Origin: a virus
Virus record (IMG/VR): IMGVR_UViG_3300002104_000077
Span: 1-42,910 of that record
Direction: 5' to 3' (one strand)
Length of the DNA stretch: 42,910 nt
The notes under the pieces are model-generated. The model made no database searches, had not been told where the DNA came from, and saw nothing but the letters and a program-made list of their open reading frames with translations. Every line of letters starts with the position of its first letter. Position 1 is the stretch's first letter. Shown here in pieces: positions 1,948 to 42,910 of this stretch. Position numbers and translations under genes: made by a program.

Positions 1948-2144
1948 GCTGGCCAGCCCGCCAAGGCGGCATATTGTGGCGCGCCCGTATCCGCCACGAA
2001 CTCGGCGCGCTGCGCAGCGCTGTAGCTCTGACACTTGGCGCGCTCATAGCCTAGCGGGTTACCGTCAGCGTCGGTTTTCAACTCAAGCCACACGGCTTCT
2101 AGGGTGTTCGATTCGATATGGTGCGTTACGCCGGATAGGATCAT
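1944..2144 (-). CDS. Small tail-fibre-associated protein (hypothetical, chaperone-position)
   Basis: A 66-aa protein between the tail fibre and the LamG-like gene, joined to both by ATGA overlaps. It contains 'LEAVWLELKTDADGNPLGYERAKCQSYSA', which resembles small phage proteins often encoded directly after tail fibres. A role in fibre assembly is inferred from position only. The start at 2144 was chosen because of the four-base overlap; the upstream extension of the frame is the fibre C-terminus in another frame. Confidence 0.6.
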   Translation of the reverse strand: MILSGVTHHIESNTLEAVWLELKTDADGNPLGYERAKCQSYSAAQRAEFVADTGAPQYAALAGWPA

Positions 2145-4432
2145 GCTGTAGCCCCTTTTTCGATGTTGAATTGCAATACGAGCGTTTCGGATAGCGAGCC
2201 TGCCGTCATGTTGCGGATCGAGATACGGCACGACCCCGCAGCAACTGCGTCGACAGTCACTACATATGCTCCGGCCGTTGCTCCGCTTTTAATAACGACC
2301 TTTGGAATGTCGTTGGCTGCAATTTTGTTGTTTGTCAGCACGAAGCTGACAGCCGTGTTAGCAGTTAGCGCGGCGGATGCCGTAGTTATCTGCCCGGATG
2401 GTTTGTTTAGAGTTACCCCTGTTGTCTTACTGGTTGCCTGCGCTACTGTGCCGCCAGAACCGGTGCCGAATCCGATGGAGCCGGTGTCTGTAACTAGGGA
2501 GTTGACCCCGTAGGATGACCACATCTCTACCCATCCACCCCATACTCCATTAACCCCCATACGCATCCAAGATTGCGCAGGCAGTGGGGCACCTGAGCTG
2601 TATGTGTAGGCCACCTGAGTCTGATTGGTGGCGTAGGCCGTCACGAACAAATAGACGTAGTTGATCTGCCCTGTCTGCCCTGTGGGGAAGTTAGCGGGTC
2701 GTGAACCAGGCGCGCCGCCTAGTAGTTTACCGTACCACCCAGCCGTTGTGATGGTGTTAAGGTCAGTGACGCCATCAGTGTTGCCGGGCTTAGGTAATGC
2801 TAGATAGTCGCTATTTAAAGGCAGCGCAAAGTCGCCAACTTTGAGGACTCGGCCTACTGTCACGTCGGTACCCGACGCAGTGAGGTCGGCTAGTGCCGCA
2901 GTTCCAAGCCCGAGCGCCGTCCGCTGCTCGGCGGTCGTACCGACCACGCCACCTAGCCACCACGAATCTGCACCCGTGCGCTTTAGCGATGCCGCGCCGT
3001 TCTGTGTGCTCAACGTGAGCGATCCGGCCACAACCCCATTGAGCGATACGCCAGAAGCGGCTGTAACCGTTATGTCGCCGGTGTTCGATGGAAGAAAGTG
3101 CAGTTCGGCGTCAGCAGTCCAAGCCACGGTCGCCTGCGCCGGTATCGTCGAGGTATAGTTGCTGACGGTGCTGTTGACGCCGAACGTGTTGATGCTTGTC
3201 AGGCCGAGCGTTTCATTGCCCGTGATGGAGCGGATTACAGGTAGCGATGCACCTCCGCCTGCAATGGATAGATCACCAGCCCCGAGCAGGCTGGAGCCGT
3301 TCACCGTTTTGAGGGTCGTGCCGCTGACCAGCGTGTCCTGCTTGCCGGCCACAGTAGTCACAAGGCTGGTGACCTGCGCCTGCAGCTTGCCGAGGAACAC
3401 CAGCAGACTGTCCGTTGCAAGGCCTGCGGTGGCAGTCACGAAGCTGACGCCGGTCATGACCACGCCGCGCACTGCTGCGGCCAGATCGCTGATAGTGCTG
3501 GCGGCCTGGGTGCCGCTGTGGGTCGAGCGGTCGCGCAGCTGGGCGTCGGTGGCGTTGGCCGTGGCGCCGGCAGCGATGGCGCCCAGCTTGGCCTGCTCGG
3601 TATCACTGAAAGCGTTGGTGTCCGGGTTCGATTCGTAGGCCGTTTTAATTTGCGCGGCCGTCATGCTGCCGCTGGCGCCAGACTGGATGATCCAGGCACT
3701 GTCGCTTACGTCCCAGATGTAGCGGGCCACATCAGCGCCTGCGCCGCTATCCACGTCCGCATAGTCACCGGCAACTGCAGACGGGTGGGCCGCCTGGAGG
3801 GCTGCAAGGCTGGCATGCAGGCCCTTGAAGTGCGCAGCCTCCAGGCCGGCCAGCTTGGCCTTTTCGGCGGCGGTGTAGTTCTGATCGCTCAGTACCTTGG
3901 CGCCATCCTTATCCACCTTGCCGGCCAGGCTACTTGCCAGAGCAGCAGGCTGCACAGCGGTGTCGGCTTTTGCGCCCTGGGCGGCAGTGGCCGCACCAAT
4001 GTCGGCGGCGGTTGGCTTGGCGTGCACATGGTCCTCGCGCGATGCGGTCGAGGCGATGCCGGCGGCAGGCGGGCCGAGCGGTTGCGGTGCAGCATTGCCA
4101 ACAATCGCGCCGCTTCCAGCGCGCAAGGCCTCAAGCGTGCCCTTGGTGGCGCGCGCAGAGATAACCGATGCAGACACCCAGTCACGTGCGGCAGTGCCCT
4201 CCTGGCCACGCTGCACAGTCAGCACGCCGGACGCACTGGCGGTAACCTTAACGATTTCCCAGGCGGTTTCGATACCGGCACCATCCAGGGCGGCCAGGGT
4301 CAGCAGGTAGTAATCGCCCGCGCCAAGGCCGGTCAGCTTGGCAGCATCAGCCAGTGGCACGGAAAGCGAGACAGCCGAAGCTGTGGCCGGAGCAGTGAGC
4401 ACTGCGAACCAGTTGTTGATGAACAGTTGCAT
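2141..4432 (-). CDS. Tail fibre protein
   Basis: A 763-aa Ala/Thr/Ser/Gly-rich fibrous protein. The N-terminal part (about 1-130) resembles phage fibre attachment domains. The central part contains repeats of the 'AADIGAATAAQGAKADTAVQ' and 'AEKAKLAGLEA' type seen in trimeric tail fibres. The C-terminal third has a pyocin-knob-like segment ('TAGWYGKLLG...NQTQVAYTYSS...SWMRMGVNGVWGGWVEMW') and a final beta-rich domain. It would mediate receptor binding at the tail tip. The ATG at 4432 is preferred over the GTG at 4438 because an AAGGGG box lies at proper spacing. No DGR variable repeat is present here, although phage fibres are common DGR targets. Confidence 0.85.
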   Translation of the reverse strand: MQLFINNWFAVLTAPATASAVSLSVPLADAAKLTGLGAGDYYLLTLAALDGAGIETAWEIVKVTASASGVLTVQRGQEGTAARDWVSASVISARATKGTLEALRAGSGAIVGNAAPQPLGPPAAGIASTASREDHVHAKPTAADIGAATAAQGAKADTAVQPAALASSLAGKVDKDGAKVLSDQNYTAAEKAKLAGLEAAHFKGLHASLAALQAAHPSAVAGDYADVDSGAGADVARYIWDVSDSAWIIQSGASGSMTAAQIKTAYESNPDTNAFSDTEQAKLGAIAAGATANATDAQLRDRSTHSGTQAASTISDLAAAVRGVVMTGVSFVTATAGLATDSLLVFLGKLQAQVTSLVTTVAGKQDTLVSGTTLKTVNGSSLLGAGDLSIAGGGASLPVIRSITGNETLGLTSINTFGVNSTVSNYTSTIPAQATVAWTADAELHFLPSNTGDITVTAASGVSLNGVVAGSLTLSTQNGAASLKRTGADSWWLGGVVGTTAEQRTALGLGTAALADLTASGTDVTVGRVLKVGDFALPLNSDYLALPKPGNTDGVTDLNTITTAGWYGKLLGGAPGSRPANFPTGQTGQINYVYLFVTAYATNQTQVAYTYSSGAPLPAQSWMRMGVNGVWGGWVEMWSSYGVNSLVTDTGSIGFGTGSGGTVAQATSKTTGVTLNKPSGQITTASAALTANTAVSFVLTNNKIAANDIPKVVIKSGATAGAYVVTVDAVAAGSCRISIRNMTAGSLSETLVLQFNIEKGATA

Positions 4433-4441
4433 AGCCACCCC

Positions 4442-22746: not shown

Positions 22747-23787
22747 TCACCCTCTCCTAGTAGAAACGCAGGAATCAGCGGAAGCGCCCGACGCAGATGG
22801 CGCGCGGTCATCTTGTAGAAGTGCAGGAGCGGCCACTTTTGCGCCGTGCGCAGAGGCGAAACCACACGCATCCAGCCGCGAATGCCAGCGCTCCAACGCC
22901 TCGCGCCGACGCTCCATGGCATCCCGAGTCAGGTAAGTTTCGGCGGTAGTGCCCAGACTGTGATTGATCAGCAGCTCGCCCACCAGGTGATCGACACCAA
23001 TGTCGGCAAGGCTGCTGCGCATAAGTTTGCGCAAGTCATGGCTAGTCCAGCCGCGACCACTCACCTGACGCATCAGGGCATGCGCGCTGGTATCGGCCAG
23101 CCTGGCGCCGGCACGCACCGGGAACAGCCATTCAGACTTCAGTCGAGGATCGGGCAGCGCCTGGCGGTAACGCTCCAGCAGGGCCAGCACCTGAGGCGTC
23201 AGTGGCAACACATGCTGGCGCCGAGACTTGGTGTTGGCCTCGGGGATCACCCACACCCGATCATCAAGGGACACATGCGCCCAGCGCGCCAGCAAGGTCT
23301 CTGCGATACGCGTGCCATGAGCCAACATCATCAGCGGCAGCATGCCTTTGAGCGGATCAGCGTTGAACGCCTCCACCAGCTGCGGCACCAGCACCGGCAG
23401 ATCGACACGAGACAGCGCCGCCGGCTTGGGCCGCAACTTGCCCTTATAGAAGCTCTTGAAGGTTGCGCCGGCCATCGGGTTGCCTGCAATCCGGCCCTGC
23501 TCCTCGGCCATGGCGAACGCCTGGCGCATACCCTGCAGCGCCTTCTGCACGGTACGCGGCGCCAGCTCCTGGTGCATCGGCCACACCAGCTGGTCGTCCA
23601 GTGTCACCCGGTCGAGTTTCTTGATGGTCACCTTGCCCAAGCGCGGCAGCACATGCCGGCGCATCAGCGAGCCCATGCTCCCGCGATACTTGGCCGACCG
23701 GGCGCGGTCACCCTCAATCCGGCCAAGCCACCACAGCACCACATCGCCTGTGGTGCGCATCGGTGCCTTCGCCTTGGCAACACTCAT
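22747..23787 (-). CDS. Second tyrosine recombinase, embedded in the replication operon
   Basis: A 346-aa protein with an N-terminal SAM-like DNA-binding domain and a full tyrosine recombinase catalytic set: R160 (HGTRIAE), K188 (TKSRRQHVLPL), H250-x-x-R253 (SHDLRK), H276 (NHSLGTT) and Tyr285 (AETYLTR). The C-terminal tail is Ala/Ser-rich. It is transcribed with the replication genes and not with the integrase at the right end. The role could be genome-dimer resolution, circularisation or an alternative integration activity. The start at 23787 is fixed by the ATGA overlap with a preceding 34-aa ORF. Confidence 0.87.
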   Translation of the reverse strand: MSVAKAKAPMRTTGDVVLWWLGRIEGDRARSAKYRGSMGSLMRRHVLPRLGKVTIKKLDRVTLDDQLVWPMHQELAPRTVQKALQGMRQAFAMAEEQGRIAGNPMAGATFKSFYKGKLRPKPAALSRVDLPVLVPQLVEAFNADPLKGMLPLMMLAHGTRIAETLLARWAHVSLDDRVWVIPEANTKSRRQHVLPLTPQVLALLERYRQALPDPRLKSEWLFPVRAGARLADTSAHALMRQVSGRGWTSHDLRKLMRSSLADIGVDHLVGELLINHSLGTTAETYLTRDAMERRREALERWHSRLDACGFASAHGAKVAAPALLQDDRAPSASGASADSCVSTRRG

Positions 23788-23888
23788 GCCGCCACGCCCC
23801 GCACGTACACAAAGTAAAACCACACCACTGGCGCGCCAGGCAACGCCAGCACCGCCGCCACAGGTAAAGCCATCAGCGCCTTTTTCAT
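23784..23888 (-). CDS. 34-aa membrane micro-protein
   Basis: A 34-codon ORF ('MKKALMALPVAAVLALPGAP...') with one hydrophobic stretch rich in A, V, L, F and Y. It is joined at both ends by ATGA overlaps: its start overlaps the stop of the 28-aa ORF, and its stop overlaps the recombinase start. That coupling is the main reason to call it real. Function unknown; too short for the usual gene-finding cut-off. Confidence 0.5.
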   Translation of the reverse strand: MKKALMALPVAAVLALPGAPVVWFYFVYVRGVAA

Positions 23889-26942: not shown

Positions 26943-27155
26943 TCATGCTGCGGAGTCGCGGCGCAAGGCATGGCATAGGTCAATAGCTTTGAACGCCCCG
27001 GAAGTCTCAGACTCGGCGCGCAACGCAACAACCGCGCTAATGCGGGAAGAGCCGGAAATCCATTGGGAGACGGCGGATTGAGTAACCCCAAGGGCCTTGG
27101 CGGTTTTTACCTGGCCTCCGAAATGGTCAATAAGCTGCTGAATTAGGGCGGTCAT
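26943..27155 (-). CDS. cro: Cro-like repressor
   Basis: A 70-aa protein made mostly of one helix-turn-helix ('LIDHFGGQVKTAKALGVTQSAVSQWISGSSRI'), very similar in layout to YdaS/Cro-type phage repressors. It is divergent from the cI gene with three operator sites between them. The ATG at 27155 is preferred to an upstream TTG. It should bind the same operators as CI with a different order of preference and favour lytic growth. Confidence 0.87.
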   Translation of the reverse strand: MTALIQQLIDHFGGQVKTAKALGVTQSAVSQWISGSSRISAVVALRAESETSGAFKAIDLCHALRRDSAA

Positions 27156-27169
27156 GATAGCTACCAATG

Positions 27170-27231
27170 ATAAGCGTGCTTATACAGTATGCGAGAAGAA
27201 GCCTTATTTGCAACAGGATAAGCGCGCTAAT
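27170..27231. promoter_or_regulatory. OR-type operator triplet between cro and cI, with pR and pRM
   Basis: Three 14-bp pseudo-palindromes: ATAAGCGTGCTTAT (27170-27183), a weaker AGAAGAAGCCTTAT (27194-27207), and ATAAGCGCGCTAAT (27218-27231). Their centres are exactly 24 bp apart, close to lambda OR spacing. A minus-strand promoter for cro can be drawn from TTGCAA (27213-27208) and CATACT (27190-27185), 17 bp apart. A plus-strand promoter for cI would use the same TTGCAA, which is self-complementary, with a weak TACGCT at 27231-27236. The outer sites match the pL operators at 29.87-29.91 kb. Confidence 0.8.
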
Positions 27232-27243
27232 ACGCTCACCCGC

Positions 27244-27915
27244 ATGGACTTATCGGAACGAATAAAGGCCGCACGCGCGCACGCGGGCCTGACACAGCGC
27301 CAGCTCGCCGAAGCTGCCAAAGTAGAGCAACCCCTTATCTCGCAGCTTGAGAACAGGAAAACTCTTAAGACTGCGCACGTCGCGCAAATAGCAAAAGCTT
27401 GTCGGGTGAGTGCTATTTGGCTGTCCAGCGGCGAGGGCGAGATGCTTCAAGGCAAGGCGCCCGACCCGGCACCAGGAGCCCCAAGCGAAAAGGATTACGC
27501 CTTGATTCCGCAGTACACGGCGAAAGGATCAGCCGGTAACGGCCACCTAAATGAGCACGTTGAGGTTAAGGGCGGGCTCGCATTCAAGCGCGACTGGCTT
27601 GCGCGTCTTGGCGTCAAGGAGCAGCGCTGCAGCGTCATCTATGCCCAAGGCTCCAGCATGGAGCCCAGCATCGGGGATGGCGAGGTGGTGCTACTCGACC
27701 ATGACGCCACCGAGCCGCGCGACGGCAAGGTATACGTGCTCCAGCGCGCCGATGGCGAAATCATCATCAAGCGCCTGATCAAGCAGATGAGCGGGTGGGT
27801 CATTCGCTCCGACAACGAAGACAAACGCCGCTACCCAGACGAACCCATCAGCGCAGACAACCTACAGCACGTCGAGGTGGTGGGGCGCGTGGTTTGGCGC
27901 GGCGGCGGGATGTAA
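27244..27915 (+). CDS. cI: CI-type lysogeny repressor (HTH + S24 LexA-like peptidase)
   Basis: A 223-aa repressor. Residues about 1-60 form an XRE helix-turn-helix ('GLTQRQLAEAAKVEQPLISQLENRK'). A linker contains the Ala97-Gly98 autocleavage site ('KGSAGNG'). The C-terminal S24 domain has the Ser-Lys dyad: Ser138 in 'GSSMEPSIGDG' and Lys176 in 'GEIIIKRLIK'. RecA-stimulated self-cleavage would induce the prophage upon DNA damage. The ATG at 27244 has no Shine-Dalgarno sequence and lies very close to the presumed pRM start, so the message may be leaderless like lambda cI. The frame extends upstream only through the operators. Confidence 0.92.
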   Translation: MDLSERIKAARAHAGLTQRQLAEAAKVEQPLISQLENRKTLKTAHVAQIAKACRVSAIWLSSGEGEMLQGKAPDPAPGAPSEKDYALIPQYTAKGSAGNGHLNEHVEVKGGLAFKRDWLARLGVKEQRCSVIYAQGSSMEPSIGDGEVVLLDHDATEPRDGKVYVLQRADGEIIIKRLIKQMSGWVIRSDNEDKRRYPDEPISADNLQHVEVVGRVVWRGGGM

Positions 27916-29868: not shown

Positions 29869-29911
29869 ATAAGCACCCTTATTGACCCGAAAGGATAAGC
29901 GCGCTTATATT
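29869..29911 (+). promoter_or_regulatory. pL-like early promoter with OL operator pair
   Basis: A plus-strand sigma70-type promoter, TTGACC (29882-29887) and TATATT (29906-29911) with an 18-bp spacer. Two CI-type operators overlap it: ATAAGCACCCTTAT (29869-29882) and the perfect palindrome ATAAGCGCGCTTAT (29895-29908), the latter filling the spacer and touching the -10. CI binding should block the promoter in the lysogen. Transcripts would run toward 30.7-42.9 kb. Confidence 0.8.
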
Positions 29912-32379: not shown

Positions 32380-32814
32380 GGAGGAAACGCAGAAGCCGGG
32401 CAATAACGCCGTCAACGGCCCGTAGCCCCGCGGGTGGCATTAGGGGGGACCGATCACCTGGGCAACCAGGCTGCATCGGAGTGTGATCGGCGAGTCGCAG
32501 TGATAGCAGGGTGGCCACCTTGCCCCGAGCCGATAGGCAGCGCGAGCTGACTGGTGAAGACGGGCAACACCCGGCTCGATTCGATCACACCCCGATGCAG
32601 GCATTCCGCCGCATCAAAACCCCTGGGAAGGACGCGAGTCCATCACTGGGGTCAGATCGGGCACGATCAGCGGCCAACCCACGGCGCAAGACGCTCCAGT
32701 GGTTGGCAGAGGAAGCGTAAGCCTCTACCCGTGCGACGGGTAAGCGCTGCAAATAGTCGCGTCATCCAACACAGCGCCCCATTCAACACAGGCCCGGCAA
32801 CTGCTGGGCCTTTT
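32380..32814 (+). ncRNA. Candidate large structured non-coding RNA with terminator
   Basis: The gap between the 31-aa peptide and the gene at 32846 is packed with stable hairpins: CCTGG-GCAA-CCAGG (32457-32470) inside CCGATCA/TGATCGG (32450-32456/32484-32490); GCAGGGT/ACCTTGC (32506-32523); CAGC-GCGA-GCTG (32538-32549) and CGGG-CAACA-CCCG (32561-32573), both spanned by CGAGCCG/CGGCTCG (32526-32532/32572-32578, which would compete with the second hairpin's last two bases); GGAC-GCGA-GTCC (32630-32641) inside ACCCC/GGGGT; a 9-bp bulged stem (32673-32682/32699-32707); AGAGG/CCTCT; ACCCG-TGCGA-CGGGT. Several loops are GNRA tetraloops. A long-range 19-nt inverted repeat with one mismatch (32471-32489/32582-32600) competes with the first stem. 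An intrinsic terminator (stem 32791-32810, T4) closes it. No frame looks protein-coding. The family is not recognised. Confidence 0.6.
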
Positions 32815-34503: not shown

Positions 34504-36135
34504 ATGACCACCTACGGCAGCGTATGCAGCGGCATCGAGGCAGCCAGCTGCGCCTGGCACCCACTTGGCTGGCGCGCAGAGTGGTTCGCCGAAATCGAAC
34601 CGTTCCCCAGCGCGGTGCTGGCTCATCACTACCCTGGCACGCCAAACCTCGGCGATATGACCCTGCTCGCCGCCCAGGTGCTGGCCGGCACCATCAAGGC
34701 CCCCGACGTTCTGGTCGGCGGCACCCCCTGCCAGGCATTCAGCGTGGCAGGTATGCGCGCCGGCCTGGACGATCCGCGCGGCGCCCTGACTATCAAGTAT
34801 GTGGAGCTTGCAGATGCAGTTGACCATGTTCGATCAACCCGCGGCGACGATGAATGCATTGTCGTCTGGGAAAACGTCCCCGGCGTCCTCTCGGACAAAG
34901 GCAATGCGTTCGGGTGTTTCCTCGGGGCCCTGGTGGGCGAATCCGATGCGCTACTCCCGGCAGGGGGAAAATGGACGGACGCTGGTTGTGTGTATGGCCC
35001 CCGTCGAACAGCCGCATGGCGGGTGCTGGATGCCCAATATTTCGGCCTGGCCCAACGCCGCCGCCGTGTGTTCGTTGTCGCAAGTGCTCGAGCGGGGTTC
35101 GATCCCGCAGCGGTACTTTTTGAGCGCGAAGGCGTGCGCCGGGATACTCCGCCGCGCCGCGGCCAGGGGCAAGACATTGCCGGACGCGCTCCATTCGGCC
35201 CTGCGCTCCAGTGCGGATGCGGTTATCTGTTCGGAGAATCCCTAGGCGAATACGGCTGCCCGAACTGTGAGGGCGACGAAGGCCCAGCGGTCAGCGTGAT
35301 AGCGGGCGTGCCTGCATTCGGCAGCGCAAAGCTGGACGGCTCGCTATTCCAGGCCGGCACGCTGACCGCGAACGGAGCGCGGGGCGACTTCGAGAGCGAG
35401 ACGTTCTGTGTGACACCGCTGCGCGCGCAGCACAACTCAAGCCTACGCCACGACACTGATGCCTATGTTGTCGGCACGCTACAGGCGGGCGGCAAAGCCG
35501 CAGGCAGCGCAACCCAGCAGGATGCCGAGTCCGGCCTACTGGCGGTTCACGGCACCCAAGACCCGGTTGTACAGGTTGACCAGGCTCACACGCTTGGTCG
35601 GAACCATGGCCAGGAGAATGCAATCTTCGCCATCCAGAATGCCACTCGCGGAAAGGATCAGAACGGCCTGGGCATTGCCGCCGACTCACCCATGTACACA
35701 CTGGACCAGGCCAGTCAGCACGCTGTCTGCGTAACCGGCGACATCACCCACACACTCAAAGCCGATGGCTTCGATGGTAGCGAGGACGGCACAGGGCACG
35801 GACAGTCAAGTGCTCCGGTCCTTTCCTTCAAAGCGGGGCAGTCAGAGGCGGCGGGCGGGGTATTCGTCACGGAGGAATACGCCCCGACGCTCCAGGCTCA
35901 GAACAACGGCAGCACTGCAACCCCATCTGTGATGGTTGGCTCAGCCGTCCGCCGCCTCACCCCGCGCGAGTGTGAGCGCCTACAGGGATTCCCAGACGAC
36001 TACACGCTGATCCCCTGGCGCGGTAAGCCCGAGGATGAATGCCCTGACGGCCCGCGCTACAAAGCCATCGGCAACAGTAAGGCTGTTCCTGTTGTGCGAT
36101 GGATAGGGCGCCGCATCCAGCAGGAAATTGCCTAA
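34504..36135 (+). CDS. DNA cytosine-5 methyltransferase with large target-recognition insert
   Basis: A 543-aa C5 methyltransferase. Motif I 'GSVCSGIEAASCAWHPLGW', motif IV 'GGTPCQAFSVAG' (catalytic Cys76), motif VI 'ENVPG' (Glu123), motif VIII 'QRRRRVF', motifs IX-X 'RRLTPRECERLQGFPDDY' and 'AIGNSKAVPVVRWIGRRI'. Between VIII and IX is a very long variable region (about 190-470) holding a four-Cys zinc-ribbon-like cluster (C237, C239, C252, C255) and repeated Gly/Thr-rich strands. No restriction partner is seen, so it is probably a solitary phage methyltransferase protecting against host restriction. Confidence 0.9.
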   Translation: MTTYGSVCSGIEAASCAWHPLGWRAEWFAEIEPFPSAVLAHHYPGTPNLGDMTLLAAQVLAGTIKAPDVLVGGTPCQAFSVAGMRAGLDDPRGALTIKYVELADAVDHVRSTRGDDECIVVWENVPGVLSDKGNAFGCFLGALVGESDALLPAGGKWTDAGCVYGPRRTAAWRVLDAQYFGLAQRRRRVFVVASARAGFDPAAVLFEREGVRRDTPPRRGQGQDIAGRAPFGPALQCGCGYLFGESLGEYGCPNCEGDEGPAVSVIAGVPAFGSAKLDGSLFQAGTLTANGARGDFESETFCVTPLRAQHNSSLRHDTDAYVVGTLQAGGKAAGSATQQDAESGLLAVHGTQDPVVQVDQAHTLGRNHGQENAIFAIQNATRGKDQNGLGIAADSPMYTLDQASQHAVCVTGDITHTLKADGFDGSEDGTGHGQSSAPVLSFKAGQSEAAGGVFVTEEYAPTLQAQNNGSTATPSVMVGSAVRRLTPRECERLQGFPDDYTLIPWRGKPEDECPDGPRYKAIGNSKAVPVVRWIGRRIQQEIA

Positions 36136-36237: not shown

Positions 36238-36849
36238 ATGAAGCCTGAAATGATCACCCTGAAAGCCGGCCAGGCCACTATCAAGATGCCGGCCACCGCG
36301 CTGGCGCAGCTTGCGCTGGCCAGCGTTTTCGGCCAGTTGGTGCCGCAGCAATCGGCACCAGCACTTCCTGCCGGCGCTGTTCCTGCGCTTGGCGCTTACT
36401 GGCCTGGCCAGGGCGGCGTGAATGCCGGCCTTATGCGCGGCCTCGACGGGGCACGCGATTACTACCTGATCGTGCCGACCGGTGATGACGCCGAGTTCGA
36501 AGAGCTGAAGTACGGCCCGCGCGACTTCGAAGTGCCTGGCGCCGACAGCGCCTGGGATGGCCTGGCCAACACCAAGGCCCTGCTCGCCTCTGGCAAGTCG
36601 CACCCAGCGGCCGAGGCCTGCAATGGCTTCACCCGTGACGGCCACAGCGACTTCTACCTGCCGGCCCGTCGTGAGCTGCAGACGGCCGAGGCGGTGTGCC
36701 CTGAGGTGTTCAGCAAGGGCTGGCACTGGAGCAGCACGCAGCGCTCCGCCGACACCGCATTCGGCGTGCACTTCGGTGATGGCGGTCAGAACAACCTCGT
36801 CAAGCACTACGAGCTCCGTGTCCGTCCCGTCCGCAGATTGTTCATTTAA
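36238..36849 (+). CDS. DGR target protein 1 (C-type-lectin/DUF1566-like fold)
   Basis: A 203-aa protein. An N-terminal helical part (about 10-45) is followed by a DUF1566/formylglycine-enzyme-like C-type-lectin domain: 'DYYLIVPTGDDAEFEELKYGPRD', 'GHSDFYLPARRELQTAEA', 'KGWHWSSTQRSADTAF', ending 'YELRVRPVRRLFI'. The last part (residues about 167-199) is variable repeat 1. Eleven codons there differ from the template repeat, all by changes at template adenines. There is no signal peptide. It is 92 bases from target 2, separated by a hairpin and a terminator. The ligand and location of the protein are unknown. Confidence 0.9.
   Translation: MKPEMITLKAGQATIKMPATALAQLALASVFGQLVPQQSAPALPAGAVPALGAYWPGQGGVNAGLMRGLDGARDYYLIVPTGDDAEFEELKYGPRDFEVPGADSAWDGLANTKALLASGKSHPAAEACNGFTRDGHSDFYLPARRELQTAEAVCPEVFSKGWHWSSTQRSADTAFGVHFGDGGQNNLVKHYELRVRPVRRLFI
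36737..36836 (+). repeat. DGR variable repeat VR1
   Basis: A 100-nt repeat matching the template at 38138-38237 with 14 differences, every one at a template A (A to G, C or T). The last 26 bases (from GAGCTCCGTG to CCGCAG) are identical in all three copies and form the likely initiation of mutagenic homing (IMH) segment. Confidence 0.95.
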
Positions 36850-36867
36850 TCATTCGTTAATTCATTC

Positions 36868-36883
36868 CTGGCCGACAGGCCAG
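36868..36883 (+). other. DGR target-recognition hairpin after VR1
   Basis: A perfect 6-bp stem CTGGCC/GGCCAG with a GACA tetraloop, 31 bases after the end of VR1. Hairpins or cruciforms with GRNA-type tetraloops downstream of the VR are known target-recognition elements in the Bordetella phage DGR; this one fits that description. Confidence 0.7.
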
Positions 36884-36895
36884 CAGTAACTCAGG

Positions 36896-36915
36896 GGCGC
36901 ATCAGCGCCTTTTTT
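36896..36915 (+). terminator. Intrinsic terminator between the DGR target genes
   Basis: Stem GGCGC/GCGCC with ATCA loop and T6 on the plus strand. It suggests that target 1 is expressed more than the genes downstream, or that target 2 has separate expression. Confidence 0.8.
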
Positions 36916-36940
36916 GTTGCCTTCAGAAAGAGGAAGCACC

Positions 36941-37558
36941 ATGCAATCAGTAGCCCTGGCAGCACCAGCATTCACCCTCCCTGAAATCGGCCAAGCCTAC
37001 GGCGGCGGCTTCTTCTCCGGGATCACCGTTCAGGACGGCAAGCGCTACATGCTCATCACCGCAGGCCGCGAGCATGAGCTTGAAGGCGAATGGGGCGAGT
37101 ACGGCACGAAGATCGAAGGCGCCGACAGCTTCACCGATGGCCGCGCCAACACCGAGGCCATGGCCGCCGCTGGCAGCGAGCTGGCCCAGCAGGTTCTGGC
37201 GCTGAGCATCGGCGGCCACAGCGACTGGGCGATCCCGGCGCGCGACCAGCAGGAGCTGCAGTACCGCAACCTCAAGCCCACCGCGCGGGAGAACTACTGC
37301 TGCGGCCGTGACGGTGACAACCCGAACAGCCTGCCGATCGGCCTGCTCTACACGCCTGAGTCACCAACCAAGACCACGGTCGGTGCCTTCCGCGAGGGCG
37401 GCAGCGAGGCCTTCCAGCCAGCCTGGTACTGGTCGAGTTCGCGGCGCTCCGCCTACGACGCATTCTTCATGTACTTCGTTGATGGCTGTCAGGACAACCT
37501 CGGCAAGGACATCGAGCTCCGTGTCCGTCCCGTCCGCAGCGAGTTGATCATTGATTAA
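36941..37558 (+). CDS. DGR target protein 2 (C-type-lectin/DUF1566-like fold)
   Basis: A 205-aa protein related in layout to target 1: 'KRYMLITAGREHELEGEWGEYG', 'GHSDWAIPARDQQELQYRNL', 'PAWYWSSSRRSAYDAFFMYF', ending 'IELRVRPVRSELIID'. VR2 covers residues about 167-199, the same residue numbers as in target 1, with twelve altered codons. The region between (about 115-155) is longer and carries Cys-Cys and Pro-rich loops not found in target 1. There is no signal peptide. The ATG at 36941 has an AAGAGGAA site. Confidence 0.9.
   Translation: MQSVALAAPAFTLPEIGQAYGGGFFSGITVQDGKRYMLITAGREHELEGEWGEYGTKIEGADSFTDGRANTEAMAAAGSELAQQVLALSIGGHSDWAIPARDQQELQYRNLKPTARENYCCGRDGDNPNSLPIGLLYTPESPTKTTVGAFREGGSEAFQPAWYWSSSRRSAYDAFFMYFVDGCQDNLGKDIELRVRPVRSELIID
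37440..37539 (+). repeat. DGR variable repeat VR2
   Basis: A 100-nt repeat aligned without gaps to the template at 38138-38237. It has 15 differences, all at template adenines. The 3' 26 bases are identical to VR1 and the template. Confidence 0.95.
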
Positions 37559-37570
37559 TTTGTTCATTCA

Positions 37571-37597
37571 GCCGGCCGCTTGCGGCCGGTGCTTTTG
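37571..37597 (+). terminator. Strong hairpin after VR2 (target-recognition hairpin and/or terminator)
   Basis: An 8-bp perfect stem CCGGCCGC/GCGGCCGG, extended by a G-T pair, with a minimal loop, followed by TTTT. It starts 31 bases after VR2, the same distance as the hairpin after VR1, so it is probably the cognate DGR hairpin. The T-run also allows terminator function. Confidence 0.7.
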
Positions 37598-37611: not shown

Positions 37612-37965
37612 ATGGCTATGCACACGGATCTGCCGATACACAAAGCCGCCTTTGACCTGCTGAGCATGGCCACTGACATAACGCGGAACATCCCGCGCGA
37701 CTTTAAGGCTGGGCTCGGCGCCAAGGTCAGGGACGAGTGCATCGAGGTGATGGTGCTGATCGCCCGAGCAAACGCAGCAAAGGACAAGCGCCAGCACCTG
37801 GGCGAGCTGGTTGAGCGTATCCAGGTGGTTGAGTTCCTGCTGCGGCTGTTCAAAGAGAAGCGCTTCATCAGCATTCCGCAGCACGCCGCGGCGATCCTCG
37901 TCACGGCATCCATCGGCAAGCAGGCCAACGCCTGGAAGAAGTCCGCAACCGCGCCCGCCACCTGA
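37612..37965 (+). CDS. avd: DGR accessory protein Avd (four-helix bundle)
   Basis: A 117-aa, strongly helical basic protein ('HKAAFDLLSMATDITRNIPRDFKAGLGAKVRDECIEVMVLIARANAAKDK', 'LVERIQVVEFLLRLFKEKRFIS', 'ASIGKQANAWKKSA'). Length, composition and place between target gene and template repeat match Avd, which forms a positively charged pentamer that binds the reverse transcriptase and the template RNA and is needed for mutagenic cDNA synthesis. GGGGAA lies nine bases before the ATG. Confidence 0.88.
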   Translation: MAMHTDLPIHKAAFDLLSMATDITRNIPRDFKAGLGAKVRDECIEVMVLIARANAAKDKRQHLGELVERIQVVEFLLRLFKEKRFISIPQHAAAILVTASIGKQANAWKKSATAPAT

Positions 37966-38137
37966 AGGTCACGGCCTTCACGTCTGTGCGATTTGAATCT
38001 GGTCGTGCCGCTGGCCCCTGGGTCACCGCCATGCGCATCAGAGATACCGCCGGTCTAAAGCGTCCGCGTAGGTCTCGCGCAGTTTCCTTGCTGATCGGCA
38101 CTGCCTTCGGCTTGGCGACGTAGATAGCACGATAGGT

Positions 38138-38237
38138 CGCAGCGCTCCGCCAACAACGCATTCAACATGAACTTCGATGATGGCAATCAGAACAACAACG
38201 ACAAGAACAACGAGCTCCGTGTCCGTCCCGTCCGCAG
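38138..38237 (+). repeat. DGR template repeat (TR)
   Basis: A 100-nt template between Avd and the reverse transcriptase. It holds 31 A, arranged largely as AAC/AAT codons in the frame of the VRs, so adenine mutagenesis can give many residues but not stop codons at these positions. It is the parent of VR1 and VR2 (14 and 15 changes, only at A). It lacks the downstream hairpin found after each VR, as expected for a template. The template RNA probably also includes the spacer from 37966. Confidence 0.95.
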
Positions 38238-39337
38238 ATTCGACTGTTGCACCTTACCCGTTCTGCGATTTGGTCCAGGCCTACTACGATTGCCGGCGCT
38301 CCAAGCGCAACAGCGCCAGCGCGCTGGCCTTCGAGGCGGACCTAGAGCGGAACCTTGTTCAGCTACACGACGACCTGCTCGCCGGCACCTACCGGCCTGG
38401 CCGCTCGATCTGCTTTGTGGTTACCCGACCCAAGGCGCGGGAGGTGTGGGCGGCGGCCTTTCGGGATCGCGTTGTCCACCACCTGCTATACAACCATGTG
38501 GCCCCGCGCTTCTACGCCAGCTTCATAGCGGACAGCTGCGCGTGCATCCCGGGGCGCGGCACGCTGTACGCCGCCGAGCGACTTGAGGCCAAGATACGCA
38601 GCGCCAGCCAGAACTGGGCGCAGCCTCTGTTCTATCTCAAGCTGGACCTGGCCAACTTCTTCGTGGCAATCGATAAGCAGGTGCTGCGCCAGCAGCTGGC
38701 CAAGCGCATCACCGAGCCTTGGTGGCTGGCCCTGGCCACGCATATCCTGATGCACGACCCACGCAGCGACTATGAAATCCGCAGCCCGCGCCACCTGTTC
38801 AACCTGGTGCCGCAGCACAAGCGCCTCACCGCGCAGCCTGCGCACCTGGGGCTGCCCATTGGCAACCTGTCGTCGCAGTTCTTCGCCAACGTCTATCTGG
38901 ACGGCCTGGACCAGTTCGTAAAGCACCGTCTGCGCTGCAAGCACTACGTGCGCTACGTCGACGACTTCGTGCTGCTGCATGAGTCGCCCCAGCAGCTGAA
39001 CGCCTGGCGTGAACAGATCGAGCAGCACCTGGCCACGCTGGGTGCCCGGCTCAACCCGAGCAAGACCATCCTGCAGCCAGTGGCCCGCGGCGTCGACTTC
39101 GTGGGCCACGTCATCAAGCCCTGGCGGCGTACCACCCGGAAGCGATCAGTTGCCCAGGCGCTGACCCGCACCGCTACAGCGCCAGCAGCTGACCTGCGTG
39201 AAACCGCCAACAGCTACTTCGGCCTGCTCAGCCAGGCCAGTCACAGCGAGAAAGACCGCGCCAAGCTGGCGCGCCTGATCCTCAAGCGGGGCCACAGCGT
39301 CAACGCGGGCCTGACCAAGACCTATCCAAACCGATAA
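38177..39337 (+). CDS. DGR reverse transcriptase
   Basis: A reverse transcriptase of the DGR clade, up to 386 aa. Motifs (numbered from 38177): N-terminal 'YRPGRSICFVVTRPKAREVWAAAFRDRVVHHLL', 'SCACIPGRGT', catalytic Asp158 in 'LKLDLANFF', the DGR-typical 'GLPIGNLSSQ' (225-234), the active site Y260-V-D-D, and 'LNPSKT' plus 'FVGHVIKP'. With Avd it copies the template RNA with adenine-directed errors. No ATG lies between the template and the first conserved helix: the only ATGs (38177, 38180) are inside the template, with a GTG at 38219 (also in the template) and a TTG at 38270. The true start is therefore uncertain. Confidence 0.93.
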   Translation: MMAIRTTTTRTTSSVSVPSADSTVAPYPFCDLVQAYYDCRRSKRNSASALAFEADLERNLVQLHDDLLAGTYRPGRSICFVVTRPKAREVWAAAFRDRVVHHLLYNHVAPRFYASFIADSCACIPGRGTLYAAERLEAKIRSASQNWAQPLFYLKLDLANFFVAIDKQVLRQQLAKRITEPWWLALATHILMHDPRSDYEIRSPRHLFNLVPQHKRLTAQPAHLGLPIGNLSSQFFANVYLDGLDQFVKHRLRCKHYVRYVDDFVLLHESPQQLNAWREQIEQHLATLGARLNPSKTILQPVARGVDFVGHVIKPWRRTTRKRSVAQALTRTATAPAADLRETANSYFGLLSQASHSEKDRAKLARLILKRGHSVNAGLTKTYPNR

Positions 39338-41559: not shown

Positions 41560-41894
41560 GCGCAGCAGAGCAGCTCCAGCAGTTGGGGCATGACAAGGTG
41601 CTTGAGGCTCGCATGGCCGAGATCATCGGCACCACAACAAAAGCCCTACAGCGCAAGCGAGAGCGAGGGGTGATCCCGCGCGGTGTGTGGGATGTACTCG
41701 ATGGGCGCGTCACCTACAGCATACGGAGATACGACGAATGGGCAGAAAGTCAGTGGCACTCCCCGAAGGCGTCGAAGTCGTCGGCAACGCCGTCCGCATC
41801 CGCTTCACCTGGAAGCATCGTCGCTGCGAAACCCTTGCTGTTTCGCCGACCGCCTCGGGCATCAGCCAGGCCGCAAGTCTTAGAACTCAGGTAA
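41556..41894 (+). CDS. xis: Excisionase-like protein, overlapping the integrase
   Basis: A 112-aa protein. The first 68 residues carry the pattern of phage excisionases ('VLEARMAEIIGTTTKALQRKRERGVIPRGVWDVLDGRVTYSIRRYDEWAESQW'), a winged-helix DNA-binding unit that directs the integrase to excision. The last 45 residues are Ser/Ala/Pro-rich, lie inside the integrase gene in another frame and do not look like a folded domain. It overlaps the preceding gene as ATGA and the integrase by 157 bases. Confidence 0.75.
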   Translation: MSAAEQLQQLGHDKVLEARMAEIIGTTTKALQRKRERGVIPRGVWDVLDGRVTYSIRRYDEWAESQWHSPKASKSSATPSASASPGSIVAAKPLLFRRPPRASARPQVLELR

Positions 41895-42910
41895 AGCAGC
41901 TGATCAAGCTCGGCGTCATGACAGATGACAAGTACGCCGAGCTGTTCCCCAGCTCAAGCTATGCCCTCTCCCGCCTCACGCCATCCTTCGGAGAGTTCGC
42001 GCAAATCTGGCTGAACAGCCGGGACATCGTTGATTCAACCCGAGCGAACTATAAAAGCACCCTGAACCTGTACTGGATGATCCACTTCGCCACGCGCCGG
42101 ATTGATGAAATCAGCTCGGCTGATGTGCGCAAGGTCGTGGCAGAGACTCCCTGGTCATCGCCAGGGGTGCGCCGCAACGCCTGCGACAAGCTGTCGGCAG
42201 TGTTCAAGGCCGCGGTGATGGACGCAGTTATTGCGCGTAATCCGGTGGCGTCAATCCAGCGGCCACGGGTGGCAAAGAAGGTGGTTGACCCGTTCACCCG
42301 AGAAGAGGCAGAGCAGATCATTGCGCACCTGTACGACAAGCTGTCGGGCCTGACGCGGATCTACGCCTGCTACTTTGAGTTCGCATTCTTTACCGGCATG
42401 CGGCCGGGCGAGCTGATGGGGTTGCGCTGGGAAGAGGTGGACTTTAACGCGAGAAGCGCACACGTCTGCCGGGTGGTGGTCGACGGCGTTATTCATGACC
42501 GCGTGAAGACCAAGAACAACCGGCACGTGCTGCTGAATGACAGGGCGCTGCATGCCCTTAAGGAAGCGAAGGTGCTGACCATGGCCAGAAGCGGGTTCGT
42601 TTTCGCGCCGGCCATCCTGGCCGATGGGGCTGACTGGATTCACACGGACACCACGCCGCGCAAGTATTTCAACCTGGCCTTGCGGGCGCTTGGCATCCGC
42701 ATTCGCAGGCAGTACGACGCCCGCCACACCTACGCCACGATGTGCCTGATGGCCGGCATGAACCCAGCATTTATTGCCAACCAGTTAGGCCACAGTGTAC
42801 AAATGCTCCTTTCCACCTATGCGCGGTGGCTCAATTCAACATCGGACTGGACTGAGCTGCAGAAGCTGGAAAACAGGCCAAATGGTACGAAATTGGCACA
42901 GGCCGAATAG
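41738..42910 (+). CDS. int: Phage integrase (tyrosine recombinase, DUF3596-type N-terminus)
   Basis: A 390-aa integrase. Residues about 1-70 form a DUF3596-like arm-binding domain ('VEVVGNAVRIRFTWKHRRCETLAVSPT'). A core-binding SAM-like domain (about 80-175) and the catalytic domain follow, with R222 (FFTGMRPGEL), K259 (VKTKNNRHVLL), R329 (QYDARHTYAT), H352 (LGHSVQ) and the nucleophile Tyr361 (LSTYARW). The first box-B residue is Tyr rather than His, common in this group. The ATG at 41738 has GGAG nine bases upstream. It is the last gene of the window; the attachment site should lie just beyond. Confidence 0.93.
   Translation: MGRKSVALPEGVEVVGNAVRIRFTWKHRRCETLAVSPTASGISQAASLRTQVKQLIKLGVMTDDKYAELFPSSSYALSRLTPSFGEFAQIWLNSRDIVDSTRANYKSTLNLYWMIHFATRRIDEISSADVRKVVAETPWSSPGVRRNACDKLSAVFKAAVMDAVIARNPVASIQRPRVAKKVVDPFTREEAEQIIAHLYDKLSGLTRIYACYFEFAFFTGMRPGELMGLRWEEVDFNARSAHVCRVVVDGVIHDRVKTKNNRHVLLNDRALHALKEAKVLTMARSGFVFAPAILADGADWIHTDTTPRKYFNLALRALGIRIRRQYDARHTYATMCLMAGMNPAFIANQLGHSVQMLLSTYARWLNSTSDWTELQKLENRPNGTKLAQAE

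Follow-up and report, generated by a model that had tools for sequence, protein, structure and literature searches.

DGR targets in the early arm of a lambda-like Pseudomonas phage and its relatives

The DGR cassette and its target proteins

The DNA analysed here (the window), an IMG/VR virus record, is 42.9 kb long (42,910 nucleotides) and has a lambda-like plan; the phage is a lambda-like temperate phage of Pseudomonas. Its minus strand encodes the terminase, portal, head and tail genes, together with Ant, replication and P-like genes; cro and cI stand back to back, and a plus-strand left arm follows, at the end of which is a tyrosine integrase (41740–42910, plus strand; PF00589, E 6e-19; mechanical ORF start 41687). 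The replication arm has a tyrosine-recombinase gene of its own (22747–23823, minus strand; PHROG integrase, E 1e-42), and relatives such as SC_8_H2H8_2017 likewise have a replication-arm recombinase besides the terminal integrase.

The left arm contains a DGR cassette in the order T1, T2, Avd, RT-15 RNA, TR and RT, all on the plus strand. The first target gene, T1 (36238–36849), encodes 203 amino acids and has VR1 at its 3′ end (36737–36839), with 14 substitutions relative to the template repeat (TR), all at A; a hairpin with a 6-bp stem and a GACA loop follows (36868–36883). The second, T2 (36941–37558), encodes 205 amino acids, its start probably being the ATG at 36941 and the listed TTG at 36914 probably unused; VR2 at its 3′ end (37436–37539) carries 16 substitutions, 15 of them at A, and is followed by a hairpin with a 7-bp stem and a 4-nt loop (37572–37589). 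Then come the accessory protein Avd (37612–37965; bAvd, E 1e-14, above cut-off; PHROG Avd, E 1e-32), an RT-15 structured RNA (37949–38139; Rfam RF03018, 178 bits) leading into TR (38138–38240, placed by TR/VR comparison), and the ORF of the DGR reverse transcriptase (38177–39337; RVT_1, E 6e-17; PHROG RT, E 7e-117; BPP-1 brt among the matches). The first 20 codons of this ORF overlap TR, and the true start of the RT may lie further downstream.

In the window as a whole, 29 of the 30 VR substitutions fall at TR adenines. Across 301 targets, 44% of TR-A sites were changed, compared with 0.27% of non-A sites, figures that derive from 147 fetched loci, with some contigs counted twice, and from an alignment score that penalises non-A mismatches. 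With its adenine-confined TR/VR differences, a DGR-type RT adjoining TR, Avd, and VR at the C-terminus of a C-type-lectin fold (in the T2 model), the element is a bona fide DGR. A search of the window for a hidden VR found none: the fibre-like gene of the late module (2141–4438, minus strand; PHROG tail-fibre matches) contains no TR-like match, as had been predicted originally, and away from the two VRs no place matches more than 54% of the TR non-A bases, which is background.

The DGR of Bordetella phage BPP-1 is arranged as mtd-avd-TR-brt, with VR in the C-terminal C-type-lectin domain of a tail protein and a hairpin after VR. The window shares with it the location of VR in such a domain, the Avd, TR and RT, the adenine-specific changes and the hairpin, but has two or three short targets in a CI-controlled early arm, where the BPP-1 target is a tail protein, and an RT that is only ~32% identical. 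The two also differ between Avd and RT: at 37949–38240 of the window the RT-15 RNA lies 5′ of TR, and TR continues directly into the RT ORF, with no 3′ spacer such as BPP-1 has. To judge from this arrangement, cDNA priming may differ from that of BPP-1.

Both targets, at ~200 amino acids, have a C-type-lectin fold in AF2 models (pLDDT 79.8 for T1 and 88.9 for T2), and both match PF07603 (E 1e-6, below the Pfam cut-off, and E 3e-5, respectively). The T1 model consists of a β-hairpin and hydrophobic helix, a linker and a C-type-lectin (Lcl_C/DUF1566) domain. The best fold match of the T2 model is the C-terminal domain of Legionella Lcl (PDB 8q4e; Z 12.5 over 120 residues), and in a PDB sequence search with the targets only the Lcl domain fell below E 0.001, weakly; PADLOC and NCBIfam gave no matches for either target. 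Lcl is a surface adhesin and not a phage early protein. Because a structure search found long fibre proteins of other phages capped by the same fold, the fold alone cannot decide what the targets do. As to localization, both had been described as lacking signal peptides and membrane segments; sequence inspection and hydropathy revealed no evident export signal or membrane segment in T1 or T2, the values of both being below the usual TM range (some relatives are higher), but that description needs qualifying in that the N-terminal helix of T1 is hydrophobic, albeit unlike a signal peptide in appearance.

Early-arm position and CI control

The Cro-like repressor (26943–27167, minus strand; PHROG transcriptional repressor, E 2e-15) adjoins a CI-like repressor ORF (27154–27915, plus strand; phrog_4 repressor, E 5e-54), and two CI operators, ATAAGCGNGCTTAT with 0–1 mismatch, lie between cro and cI (27170–27183 and 27218–27231). 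The real start of CI is probably the ATG at 27244, because the 5′ part of the ORF contains the operators and the family match covers it only from residue 25 onwards. A second pair of operators (29869–29882 and 29895–29908), matching the first, flanks and overlaps a plus-strand pL promoter, TTGACC-N18-TATATT (29882–29911; whole element 29869–29911). With one mismatch or none allowed, on either strand, the window has these four operator sites and no others. The cI transcript is set apart from pL by two terminators immediately 5′ of the promoter.

T1 starts 6.3 kb downstream of pL on the same strand, and both targets lie between a C5 cytosine DNA methyltransferase gene (34504–36135; PF00145, E 7e-35) and Avd, all on the plus strand. 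The targets are thus placed like genes of a lambda-like CI-controlled early operon, on the same strand as, and 3′ of, a promoter with CI operators. The original prediction had put them in the CI-controlled early arm and not in the tail module, between the methyltransferase and Avd and downstream of a pL-like promoter, and on each of these points it is borne out, by the operators at pL, the strand, 50 relatives and the Burkholderia phage Magia (see below). It had also appealed to a distance of 32–36 kb between the targets and the fibre gene; the linear distance is indeed 31.8–35.4 kb, but, provided that the record covers the prophage from end to end, shrinks to ~7.5 kb when measured through the junction of its ends, and we have therefore rejected distance as an argument. 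Since the ends meet in the circular form, it is strand and operon membership that carry the case for the early arm. We regard that position, and the control of the arm by CI, as practically certain.

When the targets are expressed is a matter that we infer from this arrangement. A consensus scan of 33.6–39.4 kb, which includes the interval 36.1–36.24 kb where a promoter for the targets had been thought worth seeking, found no sigma70-like site. Two terminator-like hairpins lie on the plus strand, one between pL and the targets (32790–32811; a 9-bp stem and T run, a consensus match only) and one between T1 and T2 (36893–36912; in one scan not above chance alone), so expression from pL would probably need antitermination; if pL drives the targets, read-through past the hairpin at 32790–32811 has to be assumed. 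Allowing for this, early expression of the targets is very likely.

Recurrence in relatives and persistence without RT

The RT query matched 218 IMG/VR stretches, in which the order T1-T2-Avd-RT or a close variant was repeatedly present. A target-profile search of 50 long records placed every listed target on one strand and in the same arm, and none near late genes, so that a target gene in a late tail module, as in the Mtd-like class, was seen neither in the window nor in these relatives. The terL gene was on the opposite strand to the targets, and at least 8.4 kb away, in all 16 records where it was found, and a same-strand integrase lay downstream of the targets in 34 of the 50, the absences perhaps partly reflecting circularly permuted or cut records. 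Frequent upstream neighbours of the cassette were phrog_5439, phrog_9129, an exonuclease, Erf and a CI repressor. In 35 loci an additional VR-bearing target occurs 3.7–10 kb 5′ of RT. The terminases found with the cassette belong to PF03354 (16), PF03237 (8) and PF05876 (4), besides that of the window; with at least three unrelated families represented, the cassette goes with more than a single kind of virion. The hosts of bacterial loci were mostly Pseudomonas, with Oxalobacteraceae, Acidovorax and Polaromonas also present.

The early-arm arrangement was seen in more than 100 related loci and in the Burkholderia myophage Magia, in which lectin-fold targets follow the immunity repressor and stand beside Avd-RT, with an integrase downstream; the RT is 63% identical to that of the window, but the targets are shorter and diverged. 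The authors who described Magia flagged its genes 47 and 57 as possible targets and proposed adaptation or a change of host range, the early position of the targets being undiscussed in their paper (PMC7883833). Pseudomonas phage Cruim01 has the T1-T2-Avd-TR-RT cassette in the same arm, at 77.6% DNA identity, but carries a third target near the repressor and has the methyltransferase on the other side of the cassette. Magia and Cruim01 are therefore earlier sightings in database annotation; in the open-access literature we found neither this interpretation nor a discussion of early-arm phage DGR targets.

Diversification in this lineage appears to be active, because near-clonal pairs have identical target bodies and different VRs. 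Between loci L014 and L016, T1 differs at 0 of 487 positions outside VR and 13 of 113 inside, and T2 at 0 of 448 and 19 of 113; between L049 and L051 the figures are 0 of 331 for the target body and 18 of 113 for VR, and between the isolated phage Haboob and locus L121, 0 of 372 and 18 of 78. A hairpin of at least 6 bp follows T2 in 67 of 74 distinct relatives, compared with three in shuffled controls, and its 4-nt loop and its position, 14 nt past T2, are conserved, as expected of a DGR target site.

The best evidence on the function of the targets comes from homologues that are free of a DGR. In a whole-record search a target was present and RT absent in D3, PMG1, phi_D3, FBPa42, U9, D14O, Medea1 and nine Wroclawvirus genomes, and an RT search gave no match in Aurca01, which retains its targets. 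On the pL side of cI, the first or second gene is orf68 in D3 and gp68 in PMG1. (As deposited, orf68 of D3 [L158 11787–12347] has a VR that is frameshifted relative to the matching phi_D3 and PMG1 genes.) In Aurca01, which shares its soil and host with Cruim01, and in Medea1, an HNH endonuclease gene replaces Avd-TR-RT directly after T2 (L180 13121–13632 and L160 14621–15132, respectively); both phages retain T1 and T2, and Aurca01 additionally T0. That targets are retained after loss of the DGR indicates that they are useful in their own right. The T1 bodies of the two phages differ at one of 484 positions, and VR1 at 15 TR-A sites and no others; but three extra differences just 5′ of VR suggest gene conversion between paralogues, and we do not claim trans-retrohoming here.

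The nine Wroclawvirus genomes are those of lytic jumbo phages, and their proteins are ~79–85% identical to PMG1 gp68. An integral part of the tail would hardly be expected to be shared so closely by siphophages and jumbo myophages. The orphan target gene of these phages (L157 7962–8453; L163–L170) occurs with four VR types, each with nearly invariant amino acids within its own group. Paride and Deifobo differ at 0 of 78 VR positions and 18 of 372 in the flank, and the three VR changes between Paride and MIJ3 are all synonymous. As the VR amino acids stay the same, or nearly so, while the flanks differ, the jumbo sub-groups look to have a fixed binding face under selection. Continuous trans-diversification in these phages was considered and rejected, sub-groups sharing VRs while their flanks differ. 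The homologue in PA5oct, EST35_0104, lies in the terminal-repeat region and has no ESI-MS/MS virion note in the record, in one structural stretch of which 25 of 55 CDS, including portal, head and baseplate proteins, have such a note; for a single small protein the missing note is weak negative evidence against presence in the virion. Finally, PMBT3, in which no RT is present, has two distant relatives of the targets among its tail/lysis genes (L176 2968–3621 and L179 7922–8434), one adjoining a 495-aa fibre-like protein with lysis genes nearby, which shows that members of the fold family can reside in a late module.

Possible roles of the targets

The original prediction had left two options for the targets, action inside the cell or separate expression and addition to virions. 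We consider the former the likelier, given that D3-like phages (in their pL arm) and nine jumbo phages have homologues free of a DGR, and given the PA5oct record, while the PMBT3 relative in a late fibre/lysis region keeps the virion option alive. As we infer it, a cytosolic, non-virion mode of action is fairly likely, and the fuller reading, that the DGR diversifies proteins which a temperate phage makes early and which act in the cytosol and not in the virion, is favoured on balance. On this reading the arm would be silent in the prophage, where CI holds pL. Upon infection or induction, transcription from pL would pass the recombination genes and continue into T1, T2, Avd and RT. Copying of the DGR RNA, error-prone at its adenines, would yield cDNA that takes the place of the T1 and T2 VRs in the phage DNA as it replicates, giving progeny with differing C-type-lectin binding faces. 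Each variant would then be made early in the next host and bind some host-variable protein inside the cell, most probably a defence component or a factor of a resident prophage, which would amount to bet hedging at the level of the population. That the ligand is a defence or competitor protein is our guess, and a tentative one. There is a cellular parallel in Thiohalocapsa PB-PSB1, for which cytoplasmic C-type-lectin DGR targets have been proposed as antigen sensors (PMC10907252). If the window targets are indeed cytosolic, both cases involve diversified C-type-lectin domains inside the cell whose proposed ligands are foreign proteins, but the PB-PSB1 targets are cellular and fused or linked to conflict-system effectors, whereas those of the window are phage-encoded and stand alone.

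The same proposal of antigen sensing in bacteria (PMC10907252) could also be read in favour of lysogenic conversion, in which targets made by the prophage would block or sense superinfecting phages, like the rexAB-type genes beside the repressor. The third target often adjoins the repressor, in Cruim01, Magia and D3-like phages, a place in which such genes are common. However, in the window CI operators cover the pL from which the arm starts, two terminators precede this promoter, no sigma70-like promoter of their own was found near the targets, and a role in the prophage does not explain their retention in lytic jumbo phages; we think this explanation unlikely.

Also improbable, in our view, is that T1 and T2 are stand-alone receptor-binding tips, made early and added to tails or fibres to alter host range as Mtd does. 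Mtd is an experimentally established phage DGR target and binds a receptor, the fibres of other phages are capped by the same fold, a PMBT3 relative adjoins a fibre-like gene, and host range was suggested by the authors of the Magia study (PMC7883833). Against this, the same targets occur across at least three packaging types, in a myophage, in D3-like siphophages and in jumbo phages; near-identical targets are found in unrelated virions; the PA5oct homologue has no virion MS note, and no target was found near late genes in the 50 records. That a near-neutral cassette merely inserted by chance into a tolerant early region, where accessory genes accumulate between the recombination genes and the integrase and where HNH replaced Avd-TR-RT in Aurca01 and Medea1, is very hard to believe when target frames of ~200 codons are intact in more than 100 loci, targets remain after DGR loss, and VR changes within the jumbo-phage sub-groups are almost only synonymous.

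The early, cytosolic reading bears on the accepted picture of phage DGRs, in which they serve to alter host range by way of tail proteins. A global survey of DGRs classed viral targets only as 'structural' or 'unknown' (PMC8144416). The element described here is of a known kind, a DGR, with an unusual class of target: a coherent 'unknown' class that is widespread and apparently in active diversification, with early-operon targets that outlast loss of the DGR. If these act in the cytoplasm, phages own a hypermutation system devoted to a contest fought inside the cell. It is conceivable, though doubtful as a whole, that temperate phages hold an evolving, antibody-like repertoire of cytosolic binders, remade in lytic cycles against variable host defences or rival prophages, and that RT-less phages, the lytic jumbo phages included, hold frozen versions of it, some with VRs that may still be rewritten in trans or by recombination. 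Haboob, Cruim01 and Aurca01 are isolated phages and hence accessible to ordinary experimental tools; in addition, L014 and L016, which have one shared IMG genome number and the same DGR, form a natural pair for studying diversification within an isolate.
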